Made by a program: the position numbers and the translations under genes
In this document: positions 41,177 to 59,767 of the stretch, piece by piece
Layout: every line of letters starts with the position of its first letter
Numbering within the stretch: the first letter of the stretch is position 1
Notes under the pieces: model-generated
The model's database searches: none
Told to the model about the DNA's origin: nothing
The model's input: only the letters and a program-made list of their open reading frames with translations
DNA from: Rubrobacter calidifluminis
Lineage (GTDB): Bacteria > Actinomycetota > Rubrobacteria > Rubrobacterales > Rubrobacteraceae
Assembly: GCF_028617075.1 (NCBI RefSeq)
Contig: NZ_JAQKGV010000009.1
Coordinates: 79,890-143,889, forward strand
Direction: 5' to 3'
DNA: 64,000 nt

Positions 41177-41186
41177 CGTCCTCTCC

Positions 41187-42488: not shown

Positions 42489-42490
42489 CT

Positions 42491-45289: not shown

Positions 45290-45349
45290 GACTCCTCGTT
45301 CTTAGATCGGAACGCTTCCCCTATCTGATTCGCCAGCGTTGAATTTATC

Positions 45350-45829
45350 CTAGCACGGGTGGTTCGCCGTGGAGGATCGCGCGTCTTCGAGGAGGAAGAT
45401 CCTTATCTCCCTCCCGCAGCGCCGCTGGTAGGCGGCGTAGGCGGGCCAGAGCTCGATGAAACGCGGCCAGAGCTTCTCGCGCTCTTCGGATGTAGCGAGG
45501 CGTGCCCGGCGCTCTTCCAGCGCGGCGCCAAGCCGGACGAGCGCCCGCGGGTTCGCCAGAAGGTTCCCGGACCACTCTGGATGGCGCTCCCGCCCCCAGT
45601 TGCTCGCGGCGACCGCCAGACGCTCCCCGTCCCGCACGTACAGCAGCGGGACGGTCCGCTGCCGGCCGGTCCTCCTGCCGAACGTGGTGAGCAGCAGGGT
45701 CGGGGGGCCGGCGCCGAGCGTCCTGCCCCCGAGCCACCGGTAGAGCGCCCGGTCCACCGGCGGCGCCACCTTCGAGGCGACGGCGGCGAAGAGGCGGCTG
45801 CCCCCGATCTTCTCCGCCAGGATCTTCAC
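45350..45829 (-). CDS. Deazaflavin-dependent oxidoreductase (DDN/nitroreductase-like)
   Basis: 159 residues from GTG 45829, which has GGGAGG about 9 bases upstream; the open frame continues to 45889 but is unlikely coding. F420-binding split-barrel family: LLLTTFGRRTGRQRTVPLLYVRDGERLAVAASNWG followed by HPEWSGNLLANPRALVRLG, ending in RIFLLE. DDN-type enzymes reduce quinones or xenobiotics with F420H2, which suggests an F420-producing host. Divergent from the bacteriocin-locus kinase gene. Confidence 0.88.
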   Translation of the reverse strand: MKILAEKIGGSRLFAAVASKVAPPVDRALYRWLGGRTLGAGPPTLLLTTFGRRTGRQRTVPLLYVRDGERLAVAASNWGRERHPEWSGNLLANPRALVRLGAALEERRARLATSEEREKLWPRFIELWPAYAAYQRRCGREIRIFLLEDARSSTANHPC

Positions 45830-45972
45830 GAACACGATCCTCCCTCTCTCTGCCCGGGAAGCATTGTACCTTGACCCGGCCCGCCGCATGGCCTAGCCTG
45901 TTCTTGCAACCGGCGGGGAGCTTCGTCTTCGGGGGGCTGCGGGTTTTGTCGCACGGCAGGAATGCCTTTTCG

Positions 45973-47544
45973 ATGCCGGTGTATGGCCGGGCGCTGGTCG
46001 CACTCGCCCTGTGGAGTGCGGCGGTCGCTGGCGTGCTGGCCGGGACGAGGGGCGGGTTTGCCGGGTGGGATCTGCCGCTGGCGGTTCTGTATCTTCCTGT
46101 CGTACTCTTGGTTGCCTTTTCGCTTGCCGGGGCCTGTGCGGGGTCCCGGGGGGCCGGGAGGCTTTTCTGGGGAGCGATGTGCGCCGGGTTTCTCCTCTAC
46201 CTCGTGGGGAGTCCCCTGTGGAGCCCGGCCCGCGAGCCCGGCCTGCCCTTCTCGACGGTGTGCCACGCGGCCGGGGTCCTGCTGCTGTTCGGGGCGCTGC
46301 TGCTGGGCATCTTCGCGGTCAGCAGGAGGGCGGGGTACGTGGCCTGGGCCGACGCGCTCGCCGTCGGGCTCTCGCTGGGGGTGCTCTTCTCGGTATTCGT
46401 GGCCTCCCCGGCGGAGCTCGCGGCCGATTACGGCTGGCCGGAGACGCTCGCCGACTTCTGCGGGCCCGTGGCAGAGGCCGCGCTGCTCTACCTGGGGCTC
46501 GTGCTCGCCGGGGTGGACGGGAGCCCGCCGTTCGCGCGGCCGCTGGCTCTGGGGGTGCTGGCGCTCTTCGCAGCCGAGTTCGCCTATCTTCTGGGCGTGC
46601 GCCATTCCGGCGGTGGTCCGCCGGCCCTGTGGCAGCATCTCCTCTGGCTCTGCGGTCCCGTCCTCGTCTCCCTCGCCGCCCGGCGCTCCTCGGCGCTAGA
46701 GAGCTCGCCGCTGGAGCTGGGCGTCCACCCCTGGCGCCAGGCGGCCTTCTGGTTCGGGCCGCTCTCCCCGGCCGTGCAGTTCGCTGTGGTCTTTCTCTGG
46801 ACCTCCCTGCATCCCCCGGTGCCCCGATTCGTCGCGTTCTCCGGGGCCGTGCTTGCGCTCTATCTGGCCGTGAGGATCTCCGTCTTCGCCTACGCGGTCC
46901 ATCGCCTGCGCCGCCAGCGCGACGGGGCCATAGGCCGGTTGGAGCAGGCCCGGATCTCGGAGGAGCTGCACGACACCGTGAAGCAGAACGTGCACGCCGC
47001 GGCGCTGCTCATCGGCTCCTACAGGGAGGTGCGCGAGAAGGAAGGCGAGGAGGCCGCCGAGAGGATCCTCGACGAGGCCGTAGCCGCCTCCAGGGAGGCG
47101 AGCCACCAGGTGGGGCGCTCGATCGAAGAGATCCAGGCCCGCTGCGGGGAGGGCGGCGAGCTGGACGTCGTCGGCATGCTCCGGGAGCGGCTCTGTGAGA
47201 CCAGGGAGCACTTCGCGATCGCAACCCGCGAGGATCTGCGGGCCGATCTCTCGGATCTCGGTCCTGAGGAGCGGGCCGCGGCCTACCGGGTGCCCAGCGA
47301 AGCCCTGTGGAACGCCGCCAGGCACTCTGGAGCGAGGAACGTCTGGCTGGAGTCCCGTCGCGTGGGCCCCACCTTCATCCTGCGGATCAGGGACGATGGC
47401 CGGGGGCTTCCGGAGGGCGCGGTGCGGCGGGGAACGGGCTTCGCCATCATGCGCAAGAGGGCCCGGAGGGCCGAGGGAGAGCTGGAGGTGATCTCCTCCC
47501 CGGGCAGAGGGACCACCGTGCAGTTGAGGTTCGAGGAGGGATGA
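45973..47544 (+). CDS. NarL-type sensor histidine kinase of the bacteriocin locus
   Basis: 523 residues from ATG 45973. The N-terminal ~310 residues hold about eight to ten transmembrane helices with short loops and no large external domain, so the signal is probably membrane-embedded or a small peptide. HisKA_3 dimerisation helix with ISEELHDTVKQNVHAAALLIG (phospho-His), then HATPase with ALWNAARHSG, DDGRGLPEG and SPGRGTTV. TTG 45871 is a longer alternative start. Its stop overlaps the regulator gene as ATGA. It most likely controls the two repeat-containing promoters downstream. Confidence 0.87.
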   Translation: MPVYGRALVALALWSAAVAGVLAGTRGGFAGWDLPLAVLYLPVVLLVAFSLAGACAGSRGAGRLFWGAMCAGFLLYLVGSPLWSPAREPGLPFSTVCHAAGVLLLFGALLLGIFAVSRRAGYVAWADALAVGLSLGVLFSVFVASPAELAADYGWPETLADFCGPVAEAALLYLGLVLAGVDGSPPFARPLALGVLALFAAEFAYLLGVRHSGGGPPALWQHLLWLCGPVLVSLAARRSSALESSPLELGVHPWRQAAFWFGPLSPAVQFAVVFLWTSLHPPVPRFVAFSGAVLALYLAVRISVFAYAVHRLRRQRDGAIGRLEQARISEELHDTVKQNVHAAALLIGSYREVREKEGEEAAERILDEAVAASREASHQVGRSIEEIQARCGEGGELDVVGMLRERLCETREHFAIATREDLRADLSDLGPEERAAAYRVPSEALWNAARHSGARNVWLESRRVGPTFILRIRDDGRGLPEGAVRRGTGFAIMRKRARRAEGELEVISSPGRGTTVQLRFEEG

Positions 47545-48143
47545 AAAGAGCGCGGGTTCTGCTGGTGGAGGACCACCCGGCCATGCGGCTGGGCATCAGG
47601 ACGGCGCTCGGGCTGGAGGGTGGCGTCGAGATCGTCGGAGAGGCCCCGGACGCCGCCGGAGCGCTGCGGCTCGCCTCCGAGCTGCGTCCCGACCTGGTGC
47701 TCCTGGACCTCCGCCTGAGGGGAGGCGACGGCCTCCCGCTGTGCCGCAGCCTGAAGTGTCTTGCCGATCCGCCGTACGTCCTCGTATACACCGCGTACAA
47801 CGCCCCGGCAGAAGTTCGGGAGGCCATGCTCTGCGGGGCCGACTCCTTCGTGCACAAGGGTGAGGATCCGGCCAGGCTCCGGGAGGCCGTCCGGGAGACC
47901 TGCGCCGGCAAGAGGGTGTGGTTGCTCGGGGAGCAGGGTGACGAGGCGGGCCCCGCCGCCCTCACGCCCAGGGAGCGGGAGGTCTACGAGCGGCTGCTGC
48001 TCGGCCACCCCAACCGCCAGATAGCAGAAGAGCTCGGCGTGAGTCTCCCTACCGTAAAGAGCCACGTCACCAACATCCTCAAGAAACTCGGAGTCTCAAG
48101 CAGAAGGGATCTCCTTCCGGGAGACGGAGAAGAGCAGCTCTAG
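47541..48143 (+). CDS. LuxR/NarL-type response regulator of the bacteriocin locus
   Basis: 200 residues. Complete receiver: acidic EDH (about 10-12), phospho-Asp in LVLLDLRLRGGDG, Thr in VYTAYN and Lys in FVHKGED. LuxR HTH at about 135-195: LTPREREVYERLLLGHPNRQIAEELGVSLPTVKSHV. It is the obvious candidate to bind the GGTATGA/TCATACC elements, the first of which begins only 6 bases after its stop. The kinase gene overlaps it (ATGA), so the pair is coexpressed. Confidence 0.9.
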   Translation: MKRARVLLVEDHPAMRLGIRTALGLEGGVEIVGEAPDAAGALRLASELRPDLVLLDLRLRGGDGLPLCRSLKCLADPPYVLVYTAYNAPAEVREAMLCGADSFVHKGEDPARLREAVRETCAGKRVWLLGEQGDEAGPAALTPREREVYERLLLGHPNRQIAEELGVSLPTVKSHVTNILKKLGVSSRRDLLPGDGEEQL

Positions 48144-48148
48144 AGTAT

Positions 48149-48220
48149 GGTATGAGAAAAATTCATACCGAAATTCATACCAAAAGGATGATGTGCCCGT
48201 GAAGCTCCTGCTCTAAGGTG
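48149..48220 (+). promoter_or_regulatory. Bacteriocin-locus promoter element, copy 1
   Basis: 72 bases, repeated at 50087-50158 with 65 of 72 positions identical. GGTATGA (48149-48155) and TCATACC (48163-48169) form a perfect 7-7-7 inverted repeat, and a further TTCATACC starts at 48174, exactly 12 bases after the TTCATACC at 48162. A conserved TAAGGT at 48214-48219 is a suitable -10 box with no good -35 box, so an activator bound at the repeats is expected. It drives the gene at 48258. Confidence 0.75.
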
Positions 48221-48257
48221 TTTCCTGCAGGGAGCAGAGAGCAAAGGGGGAGAGAGC

Positions 48258-49136
48258 ATGAGAGGCAGGCGTCTCGTTCTGGGCTACGATGGGGGGTGTG
48301 CGGCGTGTAGCGCTCTGGCGCAGCGCATAGAGGAGGCTGTCGGAGAGAGGCTTGAGGTCAGGAGCCTCCACGAGCCGCAGGTCGAGCACTGGCGGGAGCA
48401 GGCTTTGGGCAAGGATGCCCCGTGGGCGCCGACGCTGTTAGAGGTAGGCAACAACGGTGAGGTTAGGGTCTGGACCGGCTTGCGGATGGTGATTATGCTG
48501 AGCCGTTCTCTGGGTCTTTCCGACACTTGGAAGATTATGAGGATCTTGGGCGACATGGGCGCTGCCTGCGAAGGTTCGGACCTATCGACTGGCAGGGGCG
48601 TGGATGGGATGAGTCGCGGGCAGTTCTTGAGAGGCTTGGGTGGAGCTGCTTTGGTATTCGGTGTTCTTGGAATGGCCTCCCCAGCCTATGCTGCGCGAAG
48701 CGAGATAGATCAGCAAGCACTCGTTGACACTTTTTCTGCAGTTGAGGATCTTCCGGACTCGGTAATAGTGCAGGGAGAAAAAGCAACCAGGGAATGGTTG
48801 AGTAATAGAATCGGAGTTGACGCGGAACTGGCTGGAATCTACCAGCCACAAGGTATCTTTGGATGTGCATCTGCTATAGGTGTTGCCCTTGTCTCTAACG
48901 CTATAGGGATAGCTAAGATCTTGAAGATCAGAGCTGCTATCAGGGCTGTTGGTGGGGCATATAGATTTGCGCGGATAATTGTGAACGCTTACCGAGTAGC
49001 TCGAGGCAGAGGCCTTGGGAGGCTGGCTGCCATCAGGTACGCGGCGAGAAGAGCAGCCATAGTATCCGGGGAGGATGTGTATGGTCCGCTTCTCGCGTTG
49101 TTCAGCCTTGGTAGTGTGGTTGACGCCTGTTTCTAA
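48258..49136 (+). CDS. DCC-type thioredoxin-fold domain fused to a bacteriocin-like precursor domain
   Basis: 292 residues. Residues 1-100 form a DCC/DUF393-like thiol-disulfide domain with YDGGCAACSAL (CxxC). Around 118-145, MSRGQFLRGLGGAALVFG ending in SPAYA looks like an internal signal or Tat-like sequence. Then a polar stretch of about 60 residues, and from about 200 a hydrophobic, strongly Arg-rich domain bracketed by two cysteines (IFGCASAIG near its start and VVDACF at the C-terminus). The layout of signal, propeptide and membrane-active C-terminus recalls SdpC or halocin precursors, but I do not recognise the family. AAGGGGGAG upstream of ATG 48258. First gene after repeat copy 1. 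Confidence 0.6.
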   Translation: MRGRRLVLGYDGGCAACSALAQRIEEAVGERLEVRSLHEPQVEHWREQALGKDAPWAPTLLEVGNNGEVRVWTGLRMVIMLSRSLGLSDTWKIMRILGDMGAACEGSDLSTGRGVDGMSRGQFLRGLGGAALVFGVLGMASPAYAARSEIDQQALVDTFSAVEDLPDSVIVQGEKATREWLSNRIGVDAELAGIYQPQGIFGCASAIGVALVSNAIGIAKILKIRAAIRAVGGAYRFARIIVNAYRVARGRGLGRLAAIRYAARRAAIVSGEDVYGPLLALFSLGSVVDACF

Positions 49137-49317
49137 GTAGGAGGTACGCTGTCGCGAAGACTCCACCGTTTGTTGGTATATGCGTAGTCGCAACTAGAGA
49201 TACACCGGGGCGGCTATAGCCTTGGTATATTGGCGATGAATCCTCCAAAACAACTGTATGGAACGCAGATATCTACGATAAATCTCAGGAATGCAGGTGT
49301 GCGGAAAGGGGTTCTTT

Positions 49318-49509
49318 TTGAGACTGGTGCCAAAGACCCATAGAGGCAGGAGACTTCTCGCCCTAGCGCTTCTCATTCTGCTGAACTTCGTAGCTGAGCG
49401 GCTGAATGCTCCAGATTGGGTGTTTGTCTTACTGATCGCAGCACTTGTGACGCTGGTAGTTTGGACTCTGGTCAGGATGAAATTCGAAGGGGCTGACAGA
49501 GAGCGGTGA
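49318..49509 (+). CDS. Small two-helix membrane protein, possible immunity protein
   Basis: 63 residues from TTG 49318, preferred because GAAAGGGG ends 7 bases upstream; ATG 49291 is in frame but has a poorly placed site. A basic N-terminus (KTHRGRRL), two transmembrane helices (LLALALLILLNFVAERL and WVFVLLIAALVTLVVW) and a charged tail. Small cationic two-helix proteins often give immunity to membrane-active peptides; this is inferred from position after the DCC-fusion gene. The 181 bases before it are AT-rich and contain TTGGTATAT twice (49173 and 49222). Confidence 0.55.
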   Translation: MRLVPKTHRGRRLLALALLILLNFVAERLNAPDWVFVLLIAALVTLVVWTLVRMKFEGADRER

Positions 49510-49558
49510 AATGGTTTAGCGAGGGAGGCAAAGCGTCATCGTTCCGGTAGAAAATATA

Positions 49559-50071
49559 TTGAAGATCTGCATCGCAGCGTTTATCGTTTTCGGATTTTTC
49601 TGGATCGCACCGGTGCTGTTAGTAACCACGGCTGGCATCTTTGTGATGTTGGTAACGGCTTTCATTGCTACAACTGCCATCACCTCGGTGGTGGCGCTGC
49701 TGGTGATAGACTTCCTGTACCCGCAGACGGTAATCAGCGCCGGGCTATTGGATCTGCTGTGGCTGGTGGTGATGGCCTCCACGGCATCCGTACTCCTCTT
49801 TGATTTCCTGATCGACGGATTCTTGCTTTGGGCTTTGAGGTACCTGGTATCCAGCAAATTATGGGTCGGCATGGGGGAGGCTTTCGCCGGGGGAATAGTC
49901 ACTGCCCTGATGCTGGCTTTGTGCGCACGCCTCATGCCCGGTGGTGTTGAGCTCTCAGCCGGTGCAGCGCTGGCGGCAGCCCAGATAAGCGCTTTTGTCC
50001 GCTACTACATGGGGCTGTACCTGGGTGACACGAGCGACAAGGACCGTTACATCGAGCACATGAGCTCCTGA
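49559..50071 (+). CDS. Polytopic membrane protein of the bacteriocin locus, unknown function
   Basis: About 170 residues with four to five transmembrane helices (about 5-45, 45-60, 60-90, 100-125) and a polar end (YLGDTSDKDRYIEHMSS). Not recognised. The start is uncertain: TTG 49559 has no ribosome site directly ahead, whereas GGGAGG at 49523-49528 faces a stretch that is open in this frame but has no ATG, GTG or TTG. Last gene of unit 1; repeat copy 2 begins 16 bases after its stop. Confidence 0.6.
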   Translation: MKICIAAFIVFGFFWIAPVLLVTTAGIFVMLVTAFIATTAITSVVALLVIDFLYPQTVISAGLLDLLWLVVMASTASVLLFDFLIDGFLLWALRYLVSSKLWVGMGEAFAGGIVTALMLALCARLMPGGVELSAGAALAAAQISAFVRYYMGLYLGDTSDKDRYIEHMSS

Positions 50072-50086
50072 TGCACTCCAGAGAGT

Positions 50087-50158
50087 GGTATGAGAAAAAT
50101 TCATACCAAAAATCATACCTCAAGGATGATGTGCCCATGAGGTTCCTGCTCTAAGGTG
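50087..50158 (+). promoter_or_regulatory. Bacteriocin-locus promoter element, copy 2
   Basis: Second copy of the 72-base element at 48149-48220. GGTATGA (50087-50093) and TCATACC (50101-50107) form the same inverted repeat; the third half-site reads ATCATACC at 50112-50119, again 12 bases on. The -10-like TAAGGT is at 50152-50157. It precedes the unit encoding the circular-bacteriocin precursor. Confidence 0.75.
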
Positions 50159-50256
50159 CCCTCTGTATTGCTGTGATGGGCGTGGGTGTATCTATGTCTG
50201 CAGCACGACTTAACATGATATGCTTTGGGTAAAACCATATACAAGGAGGTACAGCG

Positions 50257-50709
50257 ATGGACCACAGAGAGAGGAGCCGACCGATGAAACCGTATCGGTC
50301 GGCTCTGGTTGCCCTGGTGTTCTCAGCTGCGGTCTTTGCCGTTATCTCACTTGTGATTCTCGACTGGAACGAGACCAGCTCCGCGGTCGGTTTGATACAG
50401 GTCAGATTCTTCCTGGCCATCTGGGCGGCGGCCGCTATGGCCCTTGTGATTGCAGGTCTCTTATTACGCAGTGGACGAGCCTCTTTACTGAGACCGCCGC
50501 TGGAGACCCTTTATCATCTGCTAATGGGGCTGGAGCTGGGTCTCATGGTGGGAACCACGGCCTGGGAGGAAGGAGTGCGTCTGGCCGGCTGGACTCAATT
50601 CTGGTTGACGATACCGCTCTTTACAGGCTATGTGTTCACGTTGTTCGACCTCTGGAGGGAGCGGCGTGCCTCAGCGCAGGAGCTGCGCCGCGAGCGGACG
50701 CGCCCTTGA
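50257..50709 (+). CDS. Four-helix membrane protein preceding the bacteriocin gene
   Basis: 150 residues. Four transmembrane helices (about 14-36, 47-68, 83-102, 113-130), with a basic N-terminus and an Arg-rich C-terminus. Excellent AAGGAGG 7 bases before ATG 50257. Not recognised by family. It ends 2 bases before the bacteriocin structural gene, whose own ribosome site is weak, so translation of the two is probably coupled. A role in maturation, leader removal or immunity is possible. Confidence 0.65.
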   Translation: MDHRERSRPMKPYRSALVALVFSAAVFAVISLVILDWNETSSAVGLIQVRFFLAIWAAAAMALVIAGLLLRSGRASLLRPPLETLYHLLMGLELGLMVGTTAWEEGVRLAGWTQFWLTIPLFTGYVFTLFDLWRERRASAQELRRERTRP

Positions 50710-50711
50710 GA

Positions 50712-50942
50712 ATGAGGGAAAATCCTGGTTCCGTCGGGATAGCCGATCTTGCGACCAACCTCGGCATCAGCTACTACGCGGCCAAAAAGGCCATCGATAT
50801 AATCGTGACCTTCTCCAATATAGCGTTGATACTCTCGCTTTTGGCTTCGGTTGTCGAAGCGGGCATCTTTACTGCCGGCATCGTCGCCATTGCCAAGAGG
50901 CTGGCGCTGCGTTACGGCGAGAGGTACGCGGCAGCCTGGTAG
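50712..50942 (+). CDS. Circular bacteriocin precursor, uberolysin/circularin-like
   Basis: 76 residues. Short leader MRENPGSVGIAD, then a hydrophobic, cationic core inferred as Leu13 to Trp76 (64 residues). The core begins LATNLGISYYAAKKAID, matching the uberolysin pattern of LA, GI, AKK and D at equivalent spacing, and ends ERYAAAW; a C-terminal aromatic residue joined to an N-terminal Leu is typical of AS-48/uberolysin-type head-to-tail cyclised bacteriocins. Core size is in the 58-70 range of the class. No cysteines. Flanked by the expected accessory genes (large membrane protein, ABC ATPase, DUF95 protein, small hydrophobic protein). The exact cyclisation site is inferred. Confidence 0.85.
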   Translation: MRENPGSVGIADLATNLGISYYAAKKAIDIIVTFSNIALILSLLASVVEAGIFTAGIVAIAKRLALRYGERYAAAW

Positions 50943-50973
50943 GGGGTATCCGGGGTCGCCAATTGCGTACACA

Positions 50974-51015
50974 GCAGATCGGGGCTCGGCCGGCTAGGTC
51001 GTAGCCCCGATCTGC
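50974..51015 (+). terminator. Perfect 13-bp hairpin between bacteriocin gene and export genes
   Basis: GCAGATCGGGGCT (50974-50986) pairs exactly with AGCCCCGATCTGC (51003-51015) around a 16-base loop. It lies 32 bases after the precursor stop and 25 bases before the next start. There is no U tract, so it probably acts as a partial terminator or mRNA-end stabiliser that keeps precursor message in excess over transporter message. Confidence 0.7.
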
Positions 51016-51039
51016 AGCGCAGAGAAGAGAGATTGGCCC

Positions 51040-52902
51040 GTGAGTCCCAAACCAAGGATCGAGCTTCGGGGTATCGAGCGAGTTCTCCGGAAGGGTTCGC
51101 CCGCTGAGCGAATCGCGGGACGGGGCCCGGCTGGTGGTGCTCACCGTTTCGGCGGGGACGGTGCCTGGAGGGCGGCGCTCGCGCTGTCGCTCGTGGATTT
51201 CCATAGAGCGTACAATCGACTGCTCGAAGCCCTTCCCGGGACCCTGGAATCGTCGCTCAGGGAACGTTCGTTCCGGACTCGAACTCTCGGGTGGTTCATC
51301 GTCGGGCTGGCCGTGGCCGCGCTCATCGCGACGGTTGCGTTCGCGCTCTTCGCCGCCGTTTTCGAGGCCATCGAAATCGCGGTGGGGGCGGGAATGGCGG
51401 ACCTGAAGGAGATAGGTGCCATCGCCGTGGTCACGGTGTTGCTGGGAGAGACCAGAGGTGCTGTCAAGGGTCTGGAGCGGGCGGCTCATCCGGAGGACTA
51501 CGAGCTTCTCTACCGGAGCCCTGTACCAGCGAGCGCCTTCGTGCTGTGCCGCTTCTTGCTCGCCGCTGCCGTGCGTTCGACCTCGATATGGCTCTTCGTG
51601 GTCGGCCCCGCTGTAGCCGCTTCTATCTGGATCCTCGGAAACTCCCCGCTCGCATTTCTGGCCTGGGCGGCCCTGTACGCACCCTTCTTGGCGGCTGTGG
51701 TCACCCTTCGGAGCGCATGGGGGGTGGTCGGGTACAGGATCAAAAGCTCCACGCACGCGGCTTTCGGGTCCTCTGCAGCCGGCATCGCGCTGGGTTGCGG
51801 GGTCGCCGCGGGGCTTGCAGGCGTCCTTGCGTTACTCGTTACGCGTCTGTTGGGAGGGGCGCAGGAGGTTGTGGCTTCGATCAGAACCTTTCTAGCGAGC
51901 CGCAGCGTGGAAACCTTCGCCGAACGGGCCTGGCTTCCTTCTAACTGGTTCGTCTTCTCGCTGGCGGACGCGGCTTCCGGACGGGCCGTGTCGGCTTTCT
52001 GGTGGACTGTCCTCGCGTACGTGGTTGTCGTTCCCGTCGCCATCATTGTCATTTGGGCGACTGCGCGCCTCATACCGATGGGCTCCCAGTGGGGCTACGA
52101 GCGATCCATGCGGGAGGACGGGGTTACCCGGTTTGTCGCCTCTGGCGTGTCCGCCGTGGCTGGCAGGTTTGGTCCCATCCTTGCCAAAGACCTTCGCGCT
52201 CTATCCCGGGCAACTCCGGTGGTGCGTCGACGGTTTTCGACGATGTTGTTCCTGATGGCTACCTTAATCGGCTTCGTGGTCGGGCTCGGTGTCGGAGGCG
52301 CCTACCAGGCTCACTCGTGGCAGGCTGTTTTTCCTCTTCTGATCTTCTCTTATACGCTGTGTTCTTTCGCCGGGGAGGCCCTGCTTCCCGTGACGGCGAT
52401 CGACGCGGAGGGTGAAGCCATAGATCTGTTGCGTCGGGCGTCGGTGCCGCTGATGCGCATCTTCGCGGCTAAGGCGACCCTTCAGGTCGTGCTCCTTACG
52501 GTGTTCTGCTCAACCTTGTTGGTTTCCTCTCACGCCTTCTTGCGGTATCCGTCAGCGTTGTTCGGTGCCGCGCTGTGCATCGGAATCGCGTCCGCGCTGG
52601 CGTGTGGGGTGAGTCAGGTGGGGAGCAGCGCGGTCTATCCCAGGTTCGACTGGGAGCACCACCGGGAGATCGGCAACTCTCCACGCGCCTCGACGCTCTC
52701 CAGCATAGCTTCGGGCCTCTACCTGACGCTGGCGCTGGAGGCCGCGGCGATATGCGGCATCCTGCACTACTTCGGTTACCTGGAAGAGGACACGATGCTC
52801 CTTGCCACCGGAGCAGGTGTGCTCCTGTCGGCCGCGTTGGTTACTTTTGGATTGGTACTGTTGGTCCGGCAGCGCGGGCACCGGCATTGGGGAGGAGCCT
52901 GA
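51040..52902 (+). CDS. Large polytopic membrane protein, circular-bacteriocin maturation/export type
   Basis: 620 residues with roughly ten to twelve transmembrane helices and a polar N-terminus of about 80 residues. It has the permease-like look of the large membrane proteins (about 550-600 residues) of circular-bacteriocin operons, which are thought to act in cyclisation or secretion. No ATPase domain is present; the separate ATPase gene starts 3 bases after its stop. GTG start 51040. Function assigned mainly from context. Confidence 0.72.
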   Translation: MSPKPRIELRGIERVLRKGSPAERIAGRGPAGGAHRFGGDGAWRAALALSLVDFHRAYNRLLEALPGTLESSLRERSFRTRTLGWFIVGLAVAALIATVAFALFAAVFEAIEIAVGAGMADLKEIGAIAVVTVLLGETRGAVKGLERAAHPEDYELLYRSPVPASAFVLCRFLLAAAVRSTSIWLFVVGPAVAASIWILGNSPLAFLAWAALYAPFLAAVVTLRSAWGVVGYRIKSSTHAAFGSSAAGIALGCGVAAGLAGVLALLVTRLLGGAQEVVASIRTFLASRSVETFAERAWLPSNWFVFSLADAASGRAVSAFWWTVLAYVVVVPVAIIVIWATARLIPMGSQWGYERSMREDGVTRFVASGVSAVAGRFGPILAKDLRALSRATPVVRRRFSTMLFLMATLIGFVVGLGVGGAYQAHSWQAVFPLLIFSYTLCSFAGEALLPVTAIDAEGEAIDLLRRASVPLMRIFAAKATLQVVLLTVFCSTLLVSSHAFLRYPSALFGAALCIGIASALACGVSQVGSSAVYPRFDWEHHREIGNSPRASTLSSIASGLYLTLALEAAAICGILHYFGYLEEDTMLLATGAGVLLSAALVTFGLVLLVRQRGHRHWGGA

Positions 52903-52905
52903 TCC

Positions 52906-53628
52906 GTGTTTCCGATAGAGCTAGACGGGGTCACCAGGTCTTACGGCGAGGTGCGGGCATTGGATGGAGTGTCGCTCCGGGTGCGGGCAGGGGAGATCCA
53001 CGGCCTGCTGGGCCCCAACGGTGCCGGCAAGACCACCCTCATGCGCATCATCGCCGGGCTGGTCTCGCAGGACTCCGGAGAGGTGTTCATCGCGGGTCTG
53101 AACGTGCGAGACGCTCCACGGCGAACACGCAGGGCCGTGGGCTTCGTACCGGATTCGCCCTTCCTCTACAGGTACCTGACCGGGCGGCAGTATCTGGAGT
53201 TCGTCGCCGATCTCTGGGGTCTTCCGGAGGATGAGAAGATAAAGGCCGTCGAGGATGGTTTGAAGCGGTTTGGCCTCGCAGATCGCGCGCAACACGTGAT
53301 CGGCTCGTACTCGTTCGGTATGCGCCAGAAGCTGGCCGTGGCCGGAGCACTTCTGCAGGGGCCGACCGTGCTCGTTCTGGACGAACCTCTGACCGGGTTC
53401 GACCCGCCAAGCTCCCGGTTCATGAAAGACTTTCTGCGCTCCTTCGCAGACGCTGGGAGAGCTGTTTTCCTGTCGACCTACATCCTAGAGCTTGCCCACG
53501 GCCTCTGCGACCGCGTGAGCATAATATCCGACGGGAGGATAATCCTTGAGCGTGAGACCGACGGAGACACGTCCGGTTTCGAGCGGTCGGTGCTGAACGC
53601 GATAGATCAATCCGGGGGCTCATCTTGA
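52906..53628 (+). CDS. ABC transporter ATPase of the circular bacteriocin operon
   Basis: 240 residues. Walker A GLLGPNGAGKTTLM, signature YSFGMRQKLAVA, Walker B VLVLDEPLTGFDP and the switch region STYILELAHG, in which Tyr replaces the usual switch His (SSH). GTG start 52906 behind GGAGGAG. It should power the large membrane protein encoded directly upstream. Its stop overlaps the DUF95 gene as TTGA. Confidence 0.9.
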   Translation: MFPIELDGVTRSYGEVRALDGVSLRVRAGEIHGLLGPNGAGKTTLMRIIAGLVSQDSGEVFIAGLNVRDAPRRTRRAVGFVPDSPFLYRYLTGRQYLEFVADLWGLPEDEKIKAVEDGLKRFGLADRAQHVIGSYSFGMRQKLAVAGALLQGPTVLVLDEPLTGFDPPSSRFMKDFLRSFADAGRAVFLSTYILELAHGLCDRVSIISDGRIILERETDGDTSGFERSVLNAIDQSGGSS

Positions 53629-54239
53629 GCGAGCGCGACTCGTCACAGAGCAGGACCACTCCCGGGCCGTTGGAGTCAGTGTTCTACCCCGGCGCCTGCT
53701 TGGCAGGACGTTTCCTGCGGCGTAATGCGATCCTCTTCGCTCTCTGTCTGAGTTGCTATCTGGCGGGTGCCCTTGCGGGAGGCGTAATGGCTGTGAACGG
53801 CTTCTCTGGAGGTGAGACGATCGGCGCAGACCAGTTCGGGGCACCAGGCAACCCGCTCGGGATCGCCGGCAATAACCTTGTAGCGGTCGCGCTGGTGGCG
53901 CTCGGCTCTGTCACCTTCGGCGTCCTCGCGGCGCTTCTCCTGTTCGGCAACGGGATGGGTGCCGGTATAGCAGTCGGCGCAAAGCTGAACGAGGGCTGGT
54001 CTCTGGTGGAGATCACCGCGGGGGTCCTGCCTCACGGTCTCCTCGAGATACCCGGGCTGCTGTTCGCTGGTGTCGTTGGTTTCAAGGGTTTGCACTGGTG
54101 TCTGGCGACGATAAAAGGCAAGTCAGTGGAGAACCCGTTCGGAGACTGCCTGGTCGGCCTGGCGCTTGCGGCTCTGCTGATAATCTGCGCTGCGCCCGTT
54201 GAGGCGTACGTGACGCCCGTGCTTATGGAAGCGTTCTGA
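53625..54239 (+). CDS. SpoIIM/DUF95 family membrane protein of the bacteriocin operon
   Basis: 204 residues with about five transmembrane helices. DUF95 hallmark VLPHGLLEIPGLLFAG at about 135-150. DUF95 proteins occur in nearly all circular-bacteriocin operons (for example AS-48, uberolysin and circularin loci), where they are needed for secretion, maturation or full immunity. TTG start 53625 overlaps the ATPase stop. Its presence beside the 76-residue precursor is the strongest context evidence for the class. Confidence 0.88.
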   Translation: MSERDSSQSRTTPGPLESVFYPGACLAGRFLRRNAILFALCLSCYLAGALAGGVMAVNGFSGGETIGADQFGAPGNPLGIAGNNLVAVALVALGSVTFGVLAALLLFGNGMGAGIAVGAKLNEGWSLVEITAGVLPHGLLEIPGLLFAGVVGFKGLHWCLATIKGKSVENPFGDCLVGLALAALLIICAAPVEAYVTPVLMEAF

Positions 54240-54252
54240 GGAGGAGAACTTG

Positions 54253-54504
54253 ATGCGAGAGGGGAGAGACAGAGATCTGGACACATCGGAGAAGCTGCTG
54301 GTACTGGCCATACCCGCCAGCGCGATCTCCGCTCTCGTCGTCTCGTTCTTCGAGCCCAGGCTCGTGCTGCTGTTTCTCTTTGGCGGACCTTGCGCGGCCT
54401 TTGTCGCCAGACCACTTCGGGGCTCGAAGACGTTGAGGTTCATAGCCGCCGGCGGCTTCGCTCTCCTCTTAATATCGACTGTGGTGATGTTCTTGGAAGG
54501 ATGA
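54253..54504 (+). CDS. Small hydrophobic protein, probable bacteriocin immunity
   Basis: 83 residues with two to three transmembrane stretches (about 13-32, 35-50 and 60-80) and basic residues near the N-terminus and between helices (RPLRGSKTLR). GAGGAG is 6 bases before ATG 54253. Small cationic hydrophobic proteins at this place in circular-bacteriocin operons give self-immunity; assignment is by position and character, not by recognised sequence. Confidence 0.6.
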   Translation: MREGRDRDLDTSEKLLVLAIPASAISALVVSFFEPRLVLLFLFGGPCAAFVARPLRGSKTLRFIAAGGFALLLISTVVMFLEG

Positions 54505-54510
54505 TCCTGC

Positions 54511-55413
54511 ATGCACGCTGATGCGATAGTCGAGACCCGAAATCTGACCAAGCGCTACGGCCGGATAAATGCCGTGGACGGCCTCGACCTCACGGTGCGC
54601 CGGGGCGAGGTCTACGGCTTCCTCGGCCCCAACGGCGCCGGCAAAACCACCACCCTGAAGATGCTGTTGGGCCTGGTCCGCCCGACTTCCGGTTCGGCAA
54701 GCGTGCTCGGCGGGGAGCCGGGGGCTCCTGAGGGCCTGAAGAGGGTGGGCGCGCTGGTGGAGTCCCCCGCCTTCTACCCCTACCTTTCAGGCAGGGACAA
54801 CCTCAGGGTGATCGCCCGCTACTGTGGTGCGCTGCCCTCACGGGTGGACGAGATGCTCGAGACGGTCGAGCTCTCGGGGAGGGCCAAAGACAGGTTCAAG
54901 AAATATTCGCTCGGGATGAAGCAGCGGCTCGGGGTGGCCGCGGCGCTCCTGAAGGACCCGGAGCTCCTCATCCTCGACGAGCCTACCAACGGGCTGGACC
55001 CGAAGGGGATGGCGGACATGCGCGAGCTGATAAGGAGGCTCGGTCGCGGCGAGAGGACCGTGCTGCTCTCCAGCCATCTCCTCAGGGAGGTCGAGCAGAT
55101 CTGCGACCGGGTCGGCGTCATCCGCAAGGGCCGCCTCGTCGCCGAGGGCACCGTCGCCGAGCTGCGCAGTAAAGCAGGCCTGCTCGTGCGCGCCGCGCCG
55201 CTGGAGGACGCCGCGAAGATAGCGGAGGGGCTCGTGGGCGTCGAAGAAGTCGAGGTCTCGGGCGGCCTGCTGAGGCTCACCACCGACCCGGGACGCGCCG
55301 CCGAGATAAACCGCAGGCACGTCTCAGCGGGCCTGGACGTCAGCGAGCTCAGGCCGGCGGAGCAGTCGCTGGAGGAGGTCTTCCTGGAACTTACTGCAGA
55401 GGAGGTGCTCTGA
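54511..55413 (+). CDS. ABC transporter ATPase, BcrA/LanF-type immunity
   Basis: 300 residues. Walker A GFLGPNGAGKTTT, signature YSLGMKQRLGVA, Walker B LLILDEPTNGLDP and SSHLLREVEQ; a C-terminal domain of about 80 residues ends in QSLEEVFLELT. The YSLGMKQRL motif places it with bacitracin/lantibiotic-resistance ATPases. Begins 6 bases after the small hydrophobic gene, and its stop overlaps the permease start (TGATG). A second immunity layer for the bacteriocin is likely. Confidence 0.92.
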   Translation: MHADAIVETRNLTKRYGRINAVDGLDLTVRRGEVYGFLGPNGAGKTTTLKMLLGLVRPTSGSASVLGGEPGAPEGLKRVGALVESPAFYPYLSGRDNLRVIARYCGALPSRVDEMLETVELSGRAKDRFKKYSLGMKQRLGVAAALLKDPELLILDEPTNGLDPKGMADMRELIRRLGRGERTVLLSSHLLREVEQICDRVGVIRKGRLVAEGTVAELRSKAGLLVRAAPLEDAAKIAEGLVGVEEVEVSGGLLRLTTDPGRAAEINRRHVSAGLDVSELRPAEQSLEEVFLELTAEEVL

Positions 55414-56279
55414 TGCTCGCGAGCTTCGCGGCGGAGCTGCTCAAGCTCAGGAAGCGCCCGGCGACATTGATCCTCTGGACGATCTTCGGGCTCTCGATCG
55501 TGCTTTTGGGGTATCTGCTTACATATCTGCTGCTCACGGCGCTGGACGGCGGGGCTTCCTTGCAGGGACCCCGGCAGGATGCACCGGTCGCGGCAAAGGG
55601 CGCTGTCGCCGAGCTCTACCCGCGAAACGTGCTGGCCACCACCCTGCGGTCGTTCGGAGGGATCGGCGCAGGGGTGGCCCTTATCTTCGGCGCGCTGTCT
55701 GTCAGCGGCGAATACGGATGGGATACCCTGAAGATCGTCCTGACGCAGCGTCCGGGCAGGCTCTCTGTGCTCGCGGGCAAAGTAACCGCGGTCGGGGTCG
55801 TAGTGCTCGTCGGCGCTGCCGCCGGCCTGGTGCTCGGCGCCCTGTGCAGCTACTCGGTCTCCCTCGCCGAAGGAGCCCCCGTAAGCTGGCCGTCTGCAGG
55901 CCGGTGGCTCGAAGCGCTCGGGGCGGGCTGGCTGATCCTCGCCACCAACGCCTACATGGGTCTCTTCCTCGCCGTCTTGCTTCGCAGCGGCGCCCTGAGC
56001 GTCGGGATCGGGCTCGTCTACCTGCTCGTCGTGGAGGGCCTTCTGACCGGCCTTGCGGCTTTCAACGATCGCCTGGAGACCTTTGTTGGAGCGCTGCCCG
56101 GCCGCAACTCTACAGACCTCGTGGCAGCTTTCGGTCAAAGCGCTCTGACTCCGCAGTCCGGTCCTCTCCCTGCAGAGCCCGTAGAACCTCAGCAGACCTC
56201 GCTCGTGCTGGCAGCCTACCTGACAGGGTTTGTAGTGCTCTCCGCGCTCGTCTTCACCCGGCGAGAGGTCACATCCTGA
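55413..56279 (+). CDS. ABC-2 permease partner of the immunity ATPase
   Basis: 288 residues, six transmembrane helices, starting with AELLKLRKRPATLILW and containing SVSGEYGWDTLKIVLTQRPGR, both standard in ABC-2 bacitracin/multidrug-type permeases. ATG 55413 overlaps the ATPase stop. It closes the bacteriocin locus; the 269 bases that follow (to 56548) contain no gene or hairpin I can support. Confidence 0.9.
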   Translation: MLASFAAELLKLRKRPATLILWTIFGLSIVLLGYLLTYLLLTALDGGASLQGPRQDAPVAAKGAVAELYPRNVLATTLRSFGGIGAGVALIFGALSVSGEYGWDTLKIVLTQRPGRLSVLAGKVTAVGVVVLVGAAAGLVLGALCSYSVSLAEGAPVSWPSAGRWLEALGAGWLILATNAYMGLFLAVLLRSGALSVGIGLVYLLVVEGLLTGLAAFNDRLETFVGALPGRNSTDLVAAFGQSALTPQSGPLPAEPVEPQQTSLVLAAYLTGFVVLSALVFTRREVTS

Positions 56280-56548
56280 ACTTCAACCTGCATGGGCGAT
56301 ACTGGAGCAGCTTTCTCAGTACATGCCCGAGAGGTGTTCGTTCGTTTGCCCACCGCGGGGCCGGTATGGCGGGCCTTTCCCTGCTTCCCAGATCCAGCTG
56401 CTGGTCTTGGCGGTATTTCTGCTGCTGTAAGTCTGCGAGTCATTACTCTTTGAGCTTGGCGCTCTGCATGGTGCTCAGGGGCGCGCAGGCTTCGTCGCGG
56501 TGATGGGGGATAGCCGCCGGGTGTCCCTGCTCCTGCCGGGATGACAGG

Positions 56549-57625
56549 CTATATCGCCCTCCGGATGGCGCTGAGGTAATCCTTCAGACGCCGGTAACAT
56601 CCCTTAAGTACGGAGAGCCTGACGTGCTCCTCGTCCTGGTGGGCCTGCTCGGGGATGCCGGGACCGTAGTTCGCAGCCGGGACCCCGGCCGCGGCGAAGC
56701 GGGCGACGTCGGTCCAGCCCTGCTTGGCCCGCACCTCGGTCTCCGAGGCGAGCTCCTGCAGCAGAGGGTCACCGAGCGCGGGGGGCGCCCCGGCGGCGAA
56801 ATCCTTCACCTCGAAGGAGAACCCGTGCTCGCGCGCCAGTTTCGCGAAGGTCCGCTCCACGTGATCGCGGCCCCTTCCCGGCGCGAAGCGGTGGTTGACG
56901 TTGATACGAAACTCGTCCGGGACGACGTTGGTCGCGACCCCGCCGCGGGCGAGGGTTGGCGTGAGAACCTCGTAGAACCTGAGTCCCTCGATCTCGACCT
57001 CCTCCGGCATACTCTCGTGCAGCGCGGCGAGGAACCCACCGGCTTTCGAGATCGCGTTCTCCCCCAGCCAGGGCCTCGCGGCGTGCGCGGATCTTCCCCG
57101 GAAGACGACCTCGACCTGCGCGGTCCCGGCGCAGCCGGCCTCGAGCGCCCCGGCGGTGGGCTCCGGGATGAGCGCGAGCCTCGCCTCCAGCACCTCCGGA
57201 TACTCCTCGAAGACCCTCCCGAGACCGTTCTCCTCGTGCGGCCCTTCCTCCCGCTCGTAGAAGACGAAGAGGGGTTCAACCCGCGCCTCATCCCAGTCCA
57301 GGTTCTCCATCAGGGCGAGCATCAGGGCGTCCCCACCCTTCATGTCCGAGGCCCCGCGGCCGTAGACCTCATCTCCCTCCACCCGCACCGGGATACCGCC
57401 CTCCGGCTCCGGCACGGTGTCCAGGTGGCCGGCGAAGACCAGCTTCGGGCGCGAAGGGTCGGGGGTGCGGCGTCGGACGACGAGGTTGTTGGAGGTGCGC
57501 CCGACGCTCCAGAGCCCGGAGCCTGCCAGCCGCGCCTCGAGGTCGTCGCAGAGGCGCTTCTCCTCTCCGGTGACGCTCGGGCGCTCGAGGAAGAAGAGCA
57601 GCGCCTCGAGCAGCCTCTCCCTCAA
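56549..57625 (-). CDS. dapE: Succinyl-diaminopimelate desuccinylase
   Basis: 358 residues. M20 peptidase fold: FAGHLDTVPEP (first metal His/Asp), RGASDMKGGDALML (bridging Asp), FYEREEGPHEENGL (general-base and metal Glu), a lid domain with RSAHAARPWLGENAI, and a late metal His in EQAHQDEE. It removes succinate from N-succinyl-LL-DAP. TTG 57625 overlaps the dapD stop (TTGA); a longer open frame upstream runs antisense to nothing and through dapD, so is discarded. Third gene of dapC-dapD-dapE. Confidence 0.88.
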   Translation of the reverse strand: MRERLLEALLFFLERPSVTGEEKRLCDDLEARLAGSGLWSVGRTSNNLVVRRRTPDPSRPKLVFAGHLDTVPEPEGGIPVRVEGDEVYGRGASDMKGGDALMLALMENLDWDEARVEPLFVFYEREEGPHEENGLGRVFEEYPEVLEARLALIPEPTAGALEAGCAGTAQVEVVFRGRSAHAARPWLGENAISKAGGFLAALHESMPEEVEIEGLRFYEVLTPTLARGGVATNVVPDEFRINVNHRFAPGRGRDHVERTFAKLAREHGFSFEVKDFAAGAPPALGDPLLQELASETEVRAKQGWTDVARFAAAGVPAANYGPGIPEQAHQDEEHVRLSVLKGCYRRLKDYLSAIRRAI

Positions 57626-58455
57626 GAGGGCACCCCGAACTCGCGCAGCGCCTGGTTGAGCGAGGTCTTGCGGTCGGTCGACTCCCTGCGCCGCCCGATG
57701 ATGAGCGCCGCCTGAAGCTGGTAGGTGCCGCTCGGGAACTCGCGCGGGCGGCTCCCCGCGACGACGACCGAGCGCGGCGGGACGTAGCCGCGGTGGACGA
57801 CCTCCCTCTCCCCGGTAACGTCTATTATCGGGGTGGAGGCCGTGAGCACCACGTTCGCCCCCAGCACCGCCTCCTCCCCGACGCGCACCCCCTCGACGAC
57901 GATGGCGCGAGATCCGATGAACGCTCCGTCTTCGATCACGACCGGCATCGCCCCCGGCGGCTCGAGCACCCCGCCTATTCCCGCGCCGCCGGAGAGGTGG
58001 ACGTTGCGTCCGATCTGGGCGCCCGAGCCCACCGTCGCCCAGGTGTCGACCATCGTCCCGCTTCCGACCCAGGCTCCGATGTTGACGTAGCCGGGCATCA
58101 CCACCACGCCGGGCTCGAGGTAGGCTCCGTAGCGCACCGTCCCCGGCGGCACGACCCTCACCCCCGCCTCGGCGAGGTTCTTCTTCGTCGGTATTCTGTC
58201 GCGGTATTCGAAGGGACCCGAGTTTATCGTGCGCATCTCGGCTACGACGAAGTAGAGGTTTATCGCCTGCATCACCCAGGCGTTCGAGCGCCACTCGCCG
58301 CCGTGCTTCTCGGCGACCCGGATCTCACCGCGGTCCAGGGCCGCGATGGCGTCGAAGACTGCCTGCCTGTACTCCTCTTCCTCGAGCAGCCCGCGGTCTC
58401 GATAGGCGGCCTCTATCCTCTCTCTCAAAGGCTTCCCTCCGGTATCCTCGAACAC
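57622..58455 (-). CDS. dapD: Tetrahydrodipicolinate N-succinyltransferase
   Basis: 277 residues. N-terminal helical domain (about 8-60), then a left-handed beta-helix of hexapeptide repeats (about 105-230: GAYLEPGVVVMPGYVNIGAWVG, TWATVGSGAQIGRNVHLSGG), as in DapD. Uses succinyl-CoA. GTG start at 58455. 22 bases after dapC and overlapping dapE, so the lysine/DAP succinylase branch is encoded as one unit. Confidence 0.93.
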   Translation of the reverse strand: MFEDTGGKPLRERIEAAYRDRGLLEEEEYRQAVFDAIAALDRGEIRVAEKHGGEWRSNAWVMQAINLYFVVAEMRTINSGPFEYRDRIPTKKNLAEAGVRVVPPGTVRYGAYLEPGVVVMPGYVNIGAWVGSGTMVDTWATVGSGAQIGRNVHLSGGAGIGGVLEPPGAMPVVIEDGAFIGSRAIVVEGVRVGEEAVLGANVVLTASTPIIDVTGEREVVHRGYVPPRSVVVAGSRPREFPSGTYQLQAALIIGRRRESTDRKTSLNQALREFGVPS

Positions 58456-58477
58456 CTCTTCCCGGACCGGGAGCAGT

Positions 58478-59638
58478 TTAGCAAAGCCTCTCCCAGCGCC
58501 CTATGGCCCTGCGGCACTCCTCGATCGAGGGGACGAGCGCGACCCTTACGTAGCCCTCTCCTCCGGGGCCGAACGAGCGGCCGGGGGCGACTATGATGCC
58601 CTCCTCGAGCAGCCGCAGGGCGTACGCCTCGTCGTCCCCGTCGGGGGCTGCGACCCACAGGTAGAAGCTCGCCTCTGTGGGAAGGTAGGGGATGCCCGTC
58701 CTCTCGAAGAACTCCGTGAAGAGCGCGCGCTTCTCGCCGAAGATGCGCCGGCGGCGCTCGACGTGGGCGTCGTCGGACCAGGCGGCGGTCGCGGCGGCCT
58801 GCACGAAGGAGGGGGTCGCGACACCGACGGAGGGTCGCATCCGCTTCAGGGCGGAGATCATCTCCGCGTCCCCGGCGATCATCGCCGTGCGGTAACCGGT
58901 CATGCCGCTGCGCTTGGACAGAGAGCAGACGGCCAGGGTGCGCTCCCTGCTCACCTCCAGTATCGAAGGCGGCGGCTCGCCGGAGTAGATCTCGCTGTAG
59001 CACTCGTCGGAGAGGAGCAGGATGTCATGCTCGCGGCAGAAGGCGGCCACCTCCTCCAGGTAGGTGCGTGGGGCGGAGGAGCCCGTCGGGTTGTGCGGGT
59101 AGTTGATCCAGAGCATCCTGGCCCTCTCCGGGTCTACCTCTTCGAGCGGTAGCAAAAAACCATCCTCGCGGCGCAGGTGCACCGGCAGCGGCTCCCCCCC
59201 GGCGTAGGCGGTCCCGCGCTCGTAGACTGGGTAGCCCGGCGTGCCGTAGGCGACGCCTTTGCGGGCGTGGGAGTGGTGCAGAAAGGCGAACGGGAGGTGG
59301 AAGATCGCCTCCTTGGAGCCGTTCGCGGGGATAACCTCCGTCTCCGGGTCTAGCGTCACGCCGTGGCGGCGCCGCATCCAGCCGCAGAAAGCCTCGCGCA
59401 GTTCCCTCGAGCCGCTCACGGTCGGGTAGCGGCTCACCTCTGGGACGGCGTTTGTAAGGGCCTGCCTTATCCTCTCGTCGGTCGGCTCGCGCGGGTCACC
59501 GGTGCCGAAGTCGAAGAGTTCGACGCCCCGCCGCTCCAGCTCCCGGCGGCGTTCGTCGAGCTGCAGGAGGGGGTAATCCCCGCCGGCTTCCAGCGCGGGG
59601 TTCAGGATCAGCCGTTTCGTGTGGGGTTTTCGTTCCAT
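58478..59638 (-). CDS. dapC: Succinyldiaminopimelate aminotransferase
   Basis: 386 residues. Fold-type I aminotransferase: FDFGTGDPREPT, ANGSKEAIFHL, NYPHNPTGSSAP, DECYSEIY (PLP Asp/Tyr) and SLSKRSGMTGYR with the PLP Lys. By sequence alone it could be any class I/II aminotransferase; DapC is assigned because it heads dapC-dapD-dapE. ATG 59638 has GAGGAG 5 bases upstream; the longer frame to 59869 would run into the divergent lysA. Confidence 0.88.
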   Translation of the reverse strand: MERKPHTKRLILNPALEAGGDYPLLQLDERRRELERRGVELFDFGTGDPREPTDERIRQALTNAVPEVSRYPTVSGSRELREAFCGWMRRRHGVTLDPETEVIPANGSKEAIFHLPFAFLHHSHARKGVAYGTPGYPVYERGTAYAGGEPLPVHLRREDGFLLPLEEVDPERARMLWINYPHNPTGSSAPRTYLEEVAAFCREHDILLLSDECYSEIYSGEPPPSILEVSRERTLAVCSLSKRSGMTGYRTAMIAGDAEMISALKRMRPSVGVATPSFVQAAATAAWSDDAHVERRRRIFGEKRALFTEFFERTGIPYLPTEASFYLWVAAPDGDDEAYALRLLEEGIIVAPGRSFGPGGEGYVRVALVPSIEECRRAIGRWERLC

Positions 59639-59676
59639 CTTCTCCTCGCCCGTCGTTCCGGAGAGAGACGATAAGG

Positions 59677-59682
59677 AGTATA
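59677..59682 (-). promoter_or_regulatory. -10 box of the dapC promoter
   Basis: TATACT on the minus strand, 38 bases upstream of the dapC ATG, within the 129-base divergent region shared with lysA. No confident -35 box or operator is seen. Confidence 0.45.
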
Positions 59683-59767
59683 TTCCGGTCGAGGGTCGAC
59701 TTCGACGGGCGGGAAATGTAACATCCGGGTCAGGTGAGGTGAAAGGGCGAGAAGGAGGTAACTTCCG

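Follow-up and report, generated by a model that had tools for sequence, protein, structure and literature searches.

A 64,000-nucleotide stretch of Rubrobacter calidifluminis DNA (contig NZ_JAQKGV010000009.1, positions 79,890 to 143,889; hereafter the window, in whose numbering all coordinates below are given, with window features on the + strand) contains a locus that almost certainly belongs to the circular-bacteriocin family. Its precursor gene (50712..50942) encodes a 76-residue protein of the circularin A/uberolysin family with a predicted 12-residue leader (50712..50747) and a 64-residue core (50748..50939), and is followed by membrane and transport genes of the amylocyclicin type. Judged from sequence comparisons, it is reasonably probable that this strain, with such a leader, does produce the peptide in circular form. 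In the account that we favor with fair confidence, the leader would be removed, Leu1 of the core would be joined to Trp64, and the exported ring would likely kill competing bacteria by making their membranes leaky, with an 84-residue protein and a second pair of ATP-binding cassette (ABC) proteins protecting the producer. The block carrying these genes may have moved between Rubrobacteraceae genera by recombination, and a single crossover inside the leader would have replaced its long form by the short one, in a precursor that may be translated through coupling to the preceding gene for a 150-residue protein. The maturation machinery would recognize the core and leave the leader unread, an idea already put forward for circularin A, and an adjacent two-component system may control both the operon and a DCC-like gene through a common dyad.

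How circular bacteriocin precursors are recognized, cut and closed is an unsolved problem, and there is disagreement over what the leader does: enterocin NKR-5-3B needs its leader, and one residue suffices for circularin A (PMC6131525, PMC10028692). Three genomes that combine a nearly identical core and machinery with three unlike leaders offer a ready-made test of the leader's role and, if the account is true, the natural counterpart of a leader-swap experiment within one Rubrobacter lineage.

Precursor, core peptide and relatives

The precursor passes the curated cut-offs of both family profiles, PF09221 (E 1.4e-11; 44.8 bits against 23.6) and TIGR03651 (E 6.7e-10; 39.2 bits against 30.7), in the profile comparison proposed by a preliminary description of this DNA, and it is the sole PF09221 match in the 3.09-Mb assembly holding the window (G000). 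Mature enterocin NKR-5-3B (PDB 2mp8, residues 1-64) aligns without gaps to precursor residues 13-76 (E 1.2e-16; 39/64 identical), with Leu first and Trp last in both; because this alignment takes in all 64 residues of the mature peptide, the leader/core border was set at 50747/50748. The core contains six Lys/Arg and three Asp/Glu residues and no Cys, and has an isoelectric point (pI) of 9.6, in agreement with the 12-residue leader and 64-residue cationic, cysteine-free core that had been proposed for the 76-residue product. Its properties are those of group i circular bacteriocins, namely a cationic chain of ~60-70 residues, pI >9, no disulfides and hydrophobic ends, the N-terminus often being Leu and the C-terminus often Trp in published members (PMC6131525, PMC10028692).

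Two differences set the precursor apart from NKR-5-3B: the leader of the latter has 23 residues and is reported as intolerant of truncation (PMC6131525), against 12 residues here, and Gly at core residue 37 is replaced by Glu (precursor residue 49), Gly being present in 6/6 relatives compared. At the DNA level, the core of another genome of the same genus (G027) is identical to that of a genome from another Rubrobacteraceae genus (G015) over 192/192 nt, and the window differs from both by one nucleotide. Once cyclized, the window core has a calculated average mass of 6,783.0 Da, and the version present in R. naiadicus and G015 comes to 6,710.9 Da.

A protein search yielded four relatives among seven candidates: a Rubrobacter naiadicus protein (P0001; 96% identity over 88% of the query), a JGI precursor of 115 residues (80%), a Heyndrickxia coagulans protein (P0003; 58%) and a partial Rubrobacteraceae entry of 50 residues. 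The R. naiadicus label of P0001, together with the Rubrobacteraceae genome in which the window lies, bears out the proposal that the host is a Rubrobacter-like actinomycete; rubrobacters are often heat-tolerant. The P0001/G027 locus has the same operon and neighbors and 63/64 identical core residues, with Gly kept; it differs in its leader, which comprises 19 residues (or 3 from an internal ATG) and is unlike the others in sequence. A scan of named genomes confirmed at least four loci from at least 594 pattern matches, in Bacillus velezensis, B. siamensis, B. nakamurai and Sporolactobacillus vineae.

In the window's family, 3/39 genomes matched, and 14 control genomes gave no match. The circular-bacteriocin family is known mainly from Firmicutes and is rare in the window's phylum, where 4/396 sampled genomes matched at E <= 0.001. 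Three of them exceed the cut-off, and each of these belongs to the window's family, which the P0001 label identifies as Rubrobacteraceae. The fourth, in G184, scored 23.1 bits, under the cut-off, and a tblastn search there with the window's proteins gave nothing; it was discarded.

Apart from NKR-5-3B, Heyndrickxia (P0003) and Bacillus stood next among the matches listed, and the nearest relatives with known products appear from their sequences to be enterocin NKR-5-3B and amylocyclicin. The amylocyclicin-type locus of B. velezensis (L007) has 36/64 identical core residues (precursor 55% by tblastn) and a hydrophobic leader of 48 residues. A nearest relationship to uberolysin, on which the earlier comparison had been based, found no support: NKR-5-3B was the sole PDB sequence hit at E <= 1, uberolysin itself not having been aligned.

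The suggestion that the locus could be a new member stands insofar as a family locus lies in a Rubrobacteraceae genome. However, actinobacterial clusters are already in print, with five mined in propionibacteria (PMC5695211) and two Actinobacteria precursors reported (PMC8534725), and a 96% identical R. naiadicus protein is already in the databases. Since NCBI names P0001 as a family member and the profiles match, the precursor is not new to databases but a further member of a known family. No literature linking Rubrobacter with the term 'circular bacteriocin' was found, Rubrobacter went unmentioned among the matches listed for related terms, and no paper on the R. naiadicus precursor was among the matches listed. 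One paper combining Rubrobacter and bacteriocins reports, in its available part, no bacteriocin for its Rubrobacter strain.

Operon genes and a block shared with another genus

Downstream of the precursor lie the accessory genes that the preliminary description had listed. A polytopic membrane protein of 620 residues (51040..52902), with 11 Kyte-Doolittle hydrophobic segments and no Pfam match, is the counterpart of a 551-residue protein of the amylocyclicin-type locus (30% over residues 377-612, E 3e-20, tblastn) and may form the membrane part of an exporter. It is followed by an ABC transporter ATPase of 240 residues (52906..53628; PF00005, E 3.4e-29; 42% to L007), by a SpoIIM/DUF95 membrane protein (53625..54239; PF01944, E 3.7e-16; 29-31% to the loci L007-L009), which is the presumed cyclization partner, and by a hydrophobic protein of 84 residues with three hydrophobic segments (54250..54504), whose position and character make it a likely immunity protein. 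The large membrane protein, ATPase and SpoIIM protein together comprise, with the precursor, the published cluster signature of SpoIIM, transporter and precursor (PMC8659200).

In the same order, counterparts of acnC, acnD and acnE were found by tblastn, and that of acnF, a small hydrophobic open reading frame, by place and size only; at its place, L007 has an 89-residue gene matching PF19395. The genes acnACDEF are reported as indispensable for amylocyclicin (PMC6131525). Upstream of the precursor, L007 has a 190-residue gene that is weakly Yip1-like (E 0.0025, under the cut-off), whereas the window has a gene for a 150-residue membrane protein (50257..50709) with no Pfam or NCBIfam match over the cut-off and no match to the L007 gene; as a counterpart of AcnB it was rejected, with no tblastn hit to L007 at E <= 1. 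In the Sporolactobacillus locus (L010), tblastn matches were confined to the precursor and ABC ATPases.

The conserved block continues beyond 54504, where the operon had been taken to end; it reaches 56279 and includes a second ABC ATPase (54511..55413; PF00005, E 5.6e-29) and an ABC2_membrane_2 permease as its final gene (55413..56279; PF12679, E 6.4e-08). The second ATPase matches TIGR03740, a lantibiotic protection ATPase, at E 2.5e-70, yet below the curated cut-off; in L007 it matches only the place of the first ATPase, and the permease matches nothing. This pair may serve accessory self-protection or export; accessory ABC operons that boost production and immunity are reported for AS-48 and carnocyclin A (PMC6131525).

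Positions 50730-56280 are 98.4% identical to G015 over 5,551 bp, whereas the flanks are 82.5% (42394-48445), 83% (49133-50167), 79% (56549-58455) and 76% (56560-60000) identical. Given this contrast between block and flanks, the block has likely moved recently, and its transfer between Rubrobacteraceae genera is the simplest reading. With G027, the window shares 97.8% of its DNA over 14.3 kb. Within the block, G027 resembles G015 (99.1% over 5,548 bp) more closely than it does the window, although G027 and the window belong to the same genus; across the 1,860 nt of the 620-residue gene, G027 has two differences from G015 and nine from the window. The proteins of core and machinery are 92-100% identical across the three genomes. 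In G014, a genome from the genus of G015, the counterparts of 40008-45825 and 56581-60000 (most at 74-75%) lie only 0.69 kb apart, so that everything in between (45826-56580), histidine kinase through second permease, is missing there.

Other signs of mobility were considered and put aside. G+C content (block genes 56-68%, window 65.8%) was not taken as a mark of transfer, as third-position values overlap those of a flanking gene. A phage or viral origin found no phage match, and none of 168 pattern matches in viral contigs was confirmed. The 109 matching plasmid records (108 Enterococcus, 1 Staphylococcus) are all <60% identical and thus include no close carrier. A reading in which a further genome of the window's family (G026) lacks the operon was abandoned: the operon body is present, and the contig carrying it starts within the 620-residue gene, so the precursor likely lies beyond the contig end.

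Two local departures were observed in the SpoIIM region. At 53653-54052, the window and G026 differ by 31 and 16 mismatches per 200, against 0-10 elsewhere, which is possibly another recombination patch. In G015 (L005 7605-8483, - strand), a 1-nt gap alters the last residues of SpoIIM and fuses the SpoIIM and 84-residue frames into an open reading frame of 292 residues.

A proposed leader exchange and alternative readings

The match between the window and G015 stops 18 nt ahead of the core, inside the leader, so that the last six leader residues are alike (SVGIAD in the window, SAGIAD in G015) and the remainder differ; the 150-residue gene lies outside the shared block. In its place, G015 has a Yip1-domain gene (PF04893, E 9.2e-15), and the G015 leader has 51 residues with a hydrophobic stretch, preceded at a spacing of 5 nt by GGAG, a short match to a ribosome-binding site. 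The JGI relative shares 35/51 leader residues with G015, and leaders of 37-51 residues with a hydrophobic stretch occur in all five relatives compared (G015, JGI, Heyndrickxia, B. velezensis and Sporolactobacillus, the last three having 37-48 residues). Published leader lengths include the 48 residues of amylocyclicin (PMC6131525).

A second break appears within the genus. From 48500 to 57400, the window and G027 differ at 0-6 per 100 positions, except at 50200-50745, where five of six 100-base bins have 9 to 26 differences (2 in bin 50500); from the core onward, differences nearly vanish. The 150-residue gene has a synonymous rate (dS) of 0.27 against G027, with a nonsynonymous-to-synonymous ratio (dN/dS) of 0.20, compared to dS of 0.008-0.03 for genes downstream of the core. 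From the leaders and this divergence pattern, the long leader is apparently the ancestral form, and the front end seems open to exchange. Since the predicted window leader is short and has no hydrophobic stretch, the precursor is left out of the long-leader subgroup despite its amylocyclicin-type core.

Several observations weigh against production of the ring from this gene. Neither the window precursor nor that of G027 has a Shine-Dalgarno match ahead of its start. The precursor frame is open upstream to an ATG at 50220 (240 residues), overlapping the 150-residue gene in another frame, which makes the start at 50712 a prediction; in G027, the counterpart frame begins at most 19 codons ahead of the core. 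In a small profile built from five relatives, Glu at core residue 37 costs 3.8 bits. Truncation of the leader stops maturation of NKR-5-3B, the closest relative with a solved structure (PMC6131525, PMC10028692). Within the shared block, where changes are few, dN/dS is not clearly <1 (ATPase 0.90 for window-G027 and 2.9 for window-G015; 620-residue protein 0.47 and 0.66; SpoIIM 0.49; second ATPase 0.31 and 0.36). As the 84-residue protein has no Pfam or NCBIfam match, its immunity role is a guess from position. The fold check that had been proposed gave an AlphaFold model of three helices from eight aligned sequences, at a predicted local distance difference test score (pLDDT) of 54.8, and none of its 25 Foldseek matches reached E <= 0.001 in the PDB; a helical model of such low confidence gives no verdict and was set aside as evidence in both directions.

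The short leader, the lack of a Shine-Dalgarno match, the core substitution, the truncation result for NKR-5-3B and the dN/dS values would suit a relic, in which the crossover took away the functional leader together with its ribosome site, change has begun in the core (Gly to Glu) and the strain keeps mainly transport and immunity. We regard this explanation as rather unlikely, although it is the most serious competitor. The reading frames of the operon are intact in the window and G027, and in G027 a different short leader precedes a core with no change from that of G015. The precursor start codon lies 2 nt past the preceding stop codon, and the upstream 150-residue gene has a full-length Shine-Dalgarno match. 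In addition, circularin A matures with a leader of a single Met, recognition probably lying within the core (PMC10028692). The account of a ring matured from its core is retained, but the term 'complete', earlier applied to the operon, is too strong because the changed leader, the lack of a Shine-Dalgarno match and the Gly-to-Glu change make production no more than reasonably probable; the 5' part also departs from G015 and the operon exceeds its earlier limit. Of the original interpretation, family, accessory set and organism remain.

It is very improbable that the peptide is exported and cyclized yet serves for signaling or for triggering self-protection instead of killing: a two-component system adjoins the locus and the dyad is common to a second exported-looking gene, but characterized members are reported as antimicrobial, membrane-disrupting peptides (PMC6131525), and the window core is cationic and hydrophobic like them. 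A chance likeness, with the frame and its neighbors forming an unrelated ABC/SpoIIM membrane locus, can practically be dismissed. SpoIIM and ABC genes are common, and helix-turn-helix profiles give faint matches to the precursor (E 0.09-0.17), yet the precursor passes both curated profiles with no match in the control genomes, all 64 residues align to NKR-5-3B, and the gene order is that of amylocyclicin.

Putative operator, regulators and DCC-like genes

Ahead of the 150-residue gene, a block of ~75 nt containing GGTATGAGAAAAATTCATACC holds a perfect dyad, GGTATGA-N7-TCATACC (50087..50107), and the block is repeated ahead of a neighboring DCC-like gene, with the second dyad copy at 48149..48169. 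The perfect 21-nt dyad occurs at only these two places in the 3.09-Mb assembly and is probably the operator of the bacteriocin operon. When a spacer of 5-9 nt was allowed in ten genomes, the pattern was found twice in G000, twice in G027 and six times in G015 (five exact, one with a 5-nt spacer), and not in the other seven, including G026, whose contigs break here; the reversed pattern, used as a control, gave none in all ten. With three mismatches allowed, the window still has two sites, both perfect, against a mean of 0.86 in shuffled sequences, 22/100 of which reach two. Rfam gave no match in 45000-58500, and scans for sigma-70 promoters (1 against 1.8 in shuffles) and terminators (5 against 6.7) performed no better than on shuffled sequence.

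By position, a sensor histidine kinase (45871..47544; HATPase_c, E 3.3e-11; HisKA_3, E 6.5e-06) is a candidate regulator, and the adjoining LuxR/NarL-type response regulator (47541..48143; Response_reg, E 1.2e-22; GerE, E 6.4e-17) a candidate dyad binder; this two-component system (45871-48143) may act on the dyad.

The DCC-like gene (48258..49136) encodes a DCC1-like N-terminus (PF04134, E 0.0087, under the cut-off), a signal resembling those of twin-arginine translocation (Tat) by family alignment, and a cationic hydrophobic tail. A second DCC-like gene of the assembly (contig C5) matches from the coding part on only and lacks the dyad. In G015, the ~75-nt block precedes four intact DCC-like genes and also a remnant, which itself stands immediately in front of the Yip1 gene and precursor. 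A broader proposal, that a natural leader swap at the leader/core border, starting from a long-leader, membrane-anchored precursor, accompanies core-only maturation and that one operator deploys the ring jointly with exported thioredoxin-domain/Cys-rich peptides of a second, undescribed family, is offered tentatively, as a possibility short of even odds. A reading of the Cys-rich tails as similar to Halocin C8 was dropped: there was no such NCBIfam match, and nothing in the literature among the matches listed.

Between the window and G027, the bins of 47900-48099 and 48300-48499 have 9, 9, 12 and 7 differences per 100, with about one between and after them; they fall where the regulator gene ends and in the DCC-like gene's 5' part, a pattern that exchanged repeats would produce. 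In G015, the region around the operon (G015:C1:2230831-2250262; L005, L042) contains four intact DCC-family genes of 336, 347, 381 and 391 residues and a truncated remnant, their 5' ends being 84-95% identical and their tails different, like tail-swapping cassettes. Between two of these copies, an open reading frame at ~G015:C1:2246600-2247193 (L042) has, by eye, the look of an IS5-type transposase, which we take to be a possible vehicle of rearrangement.

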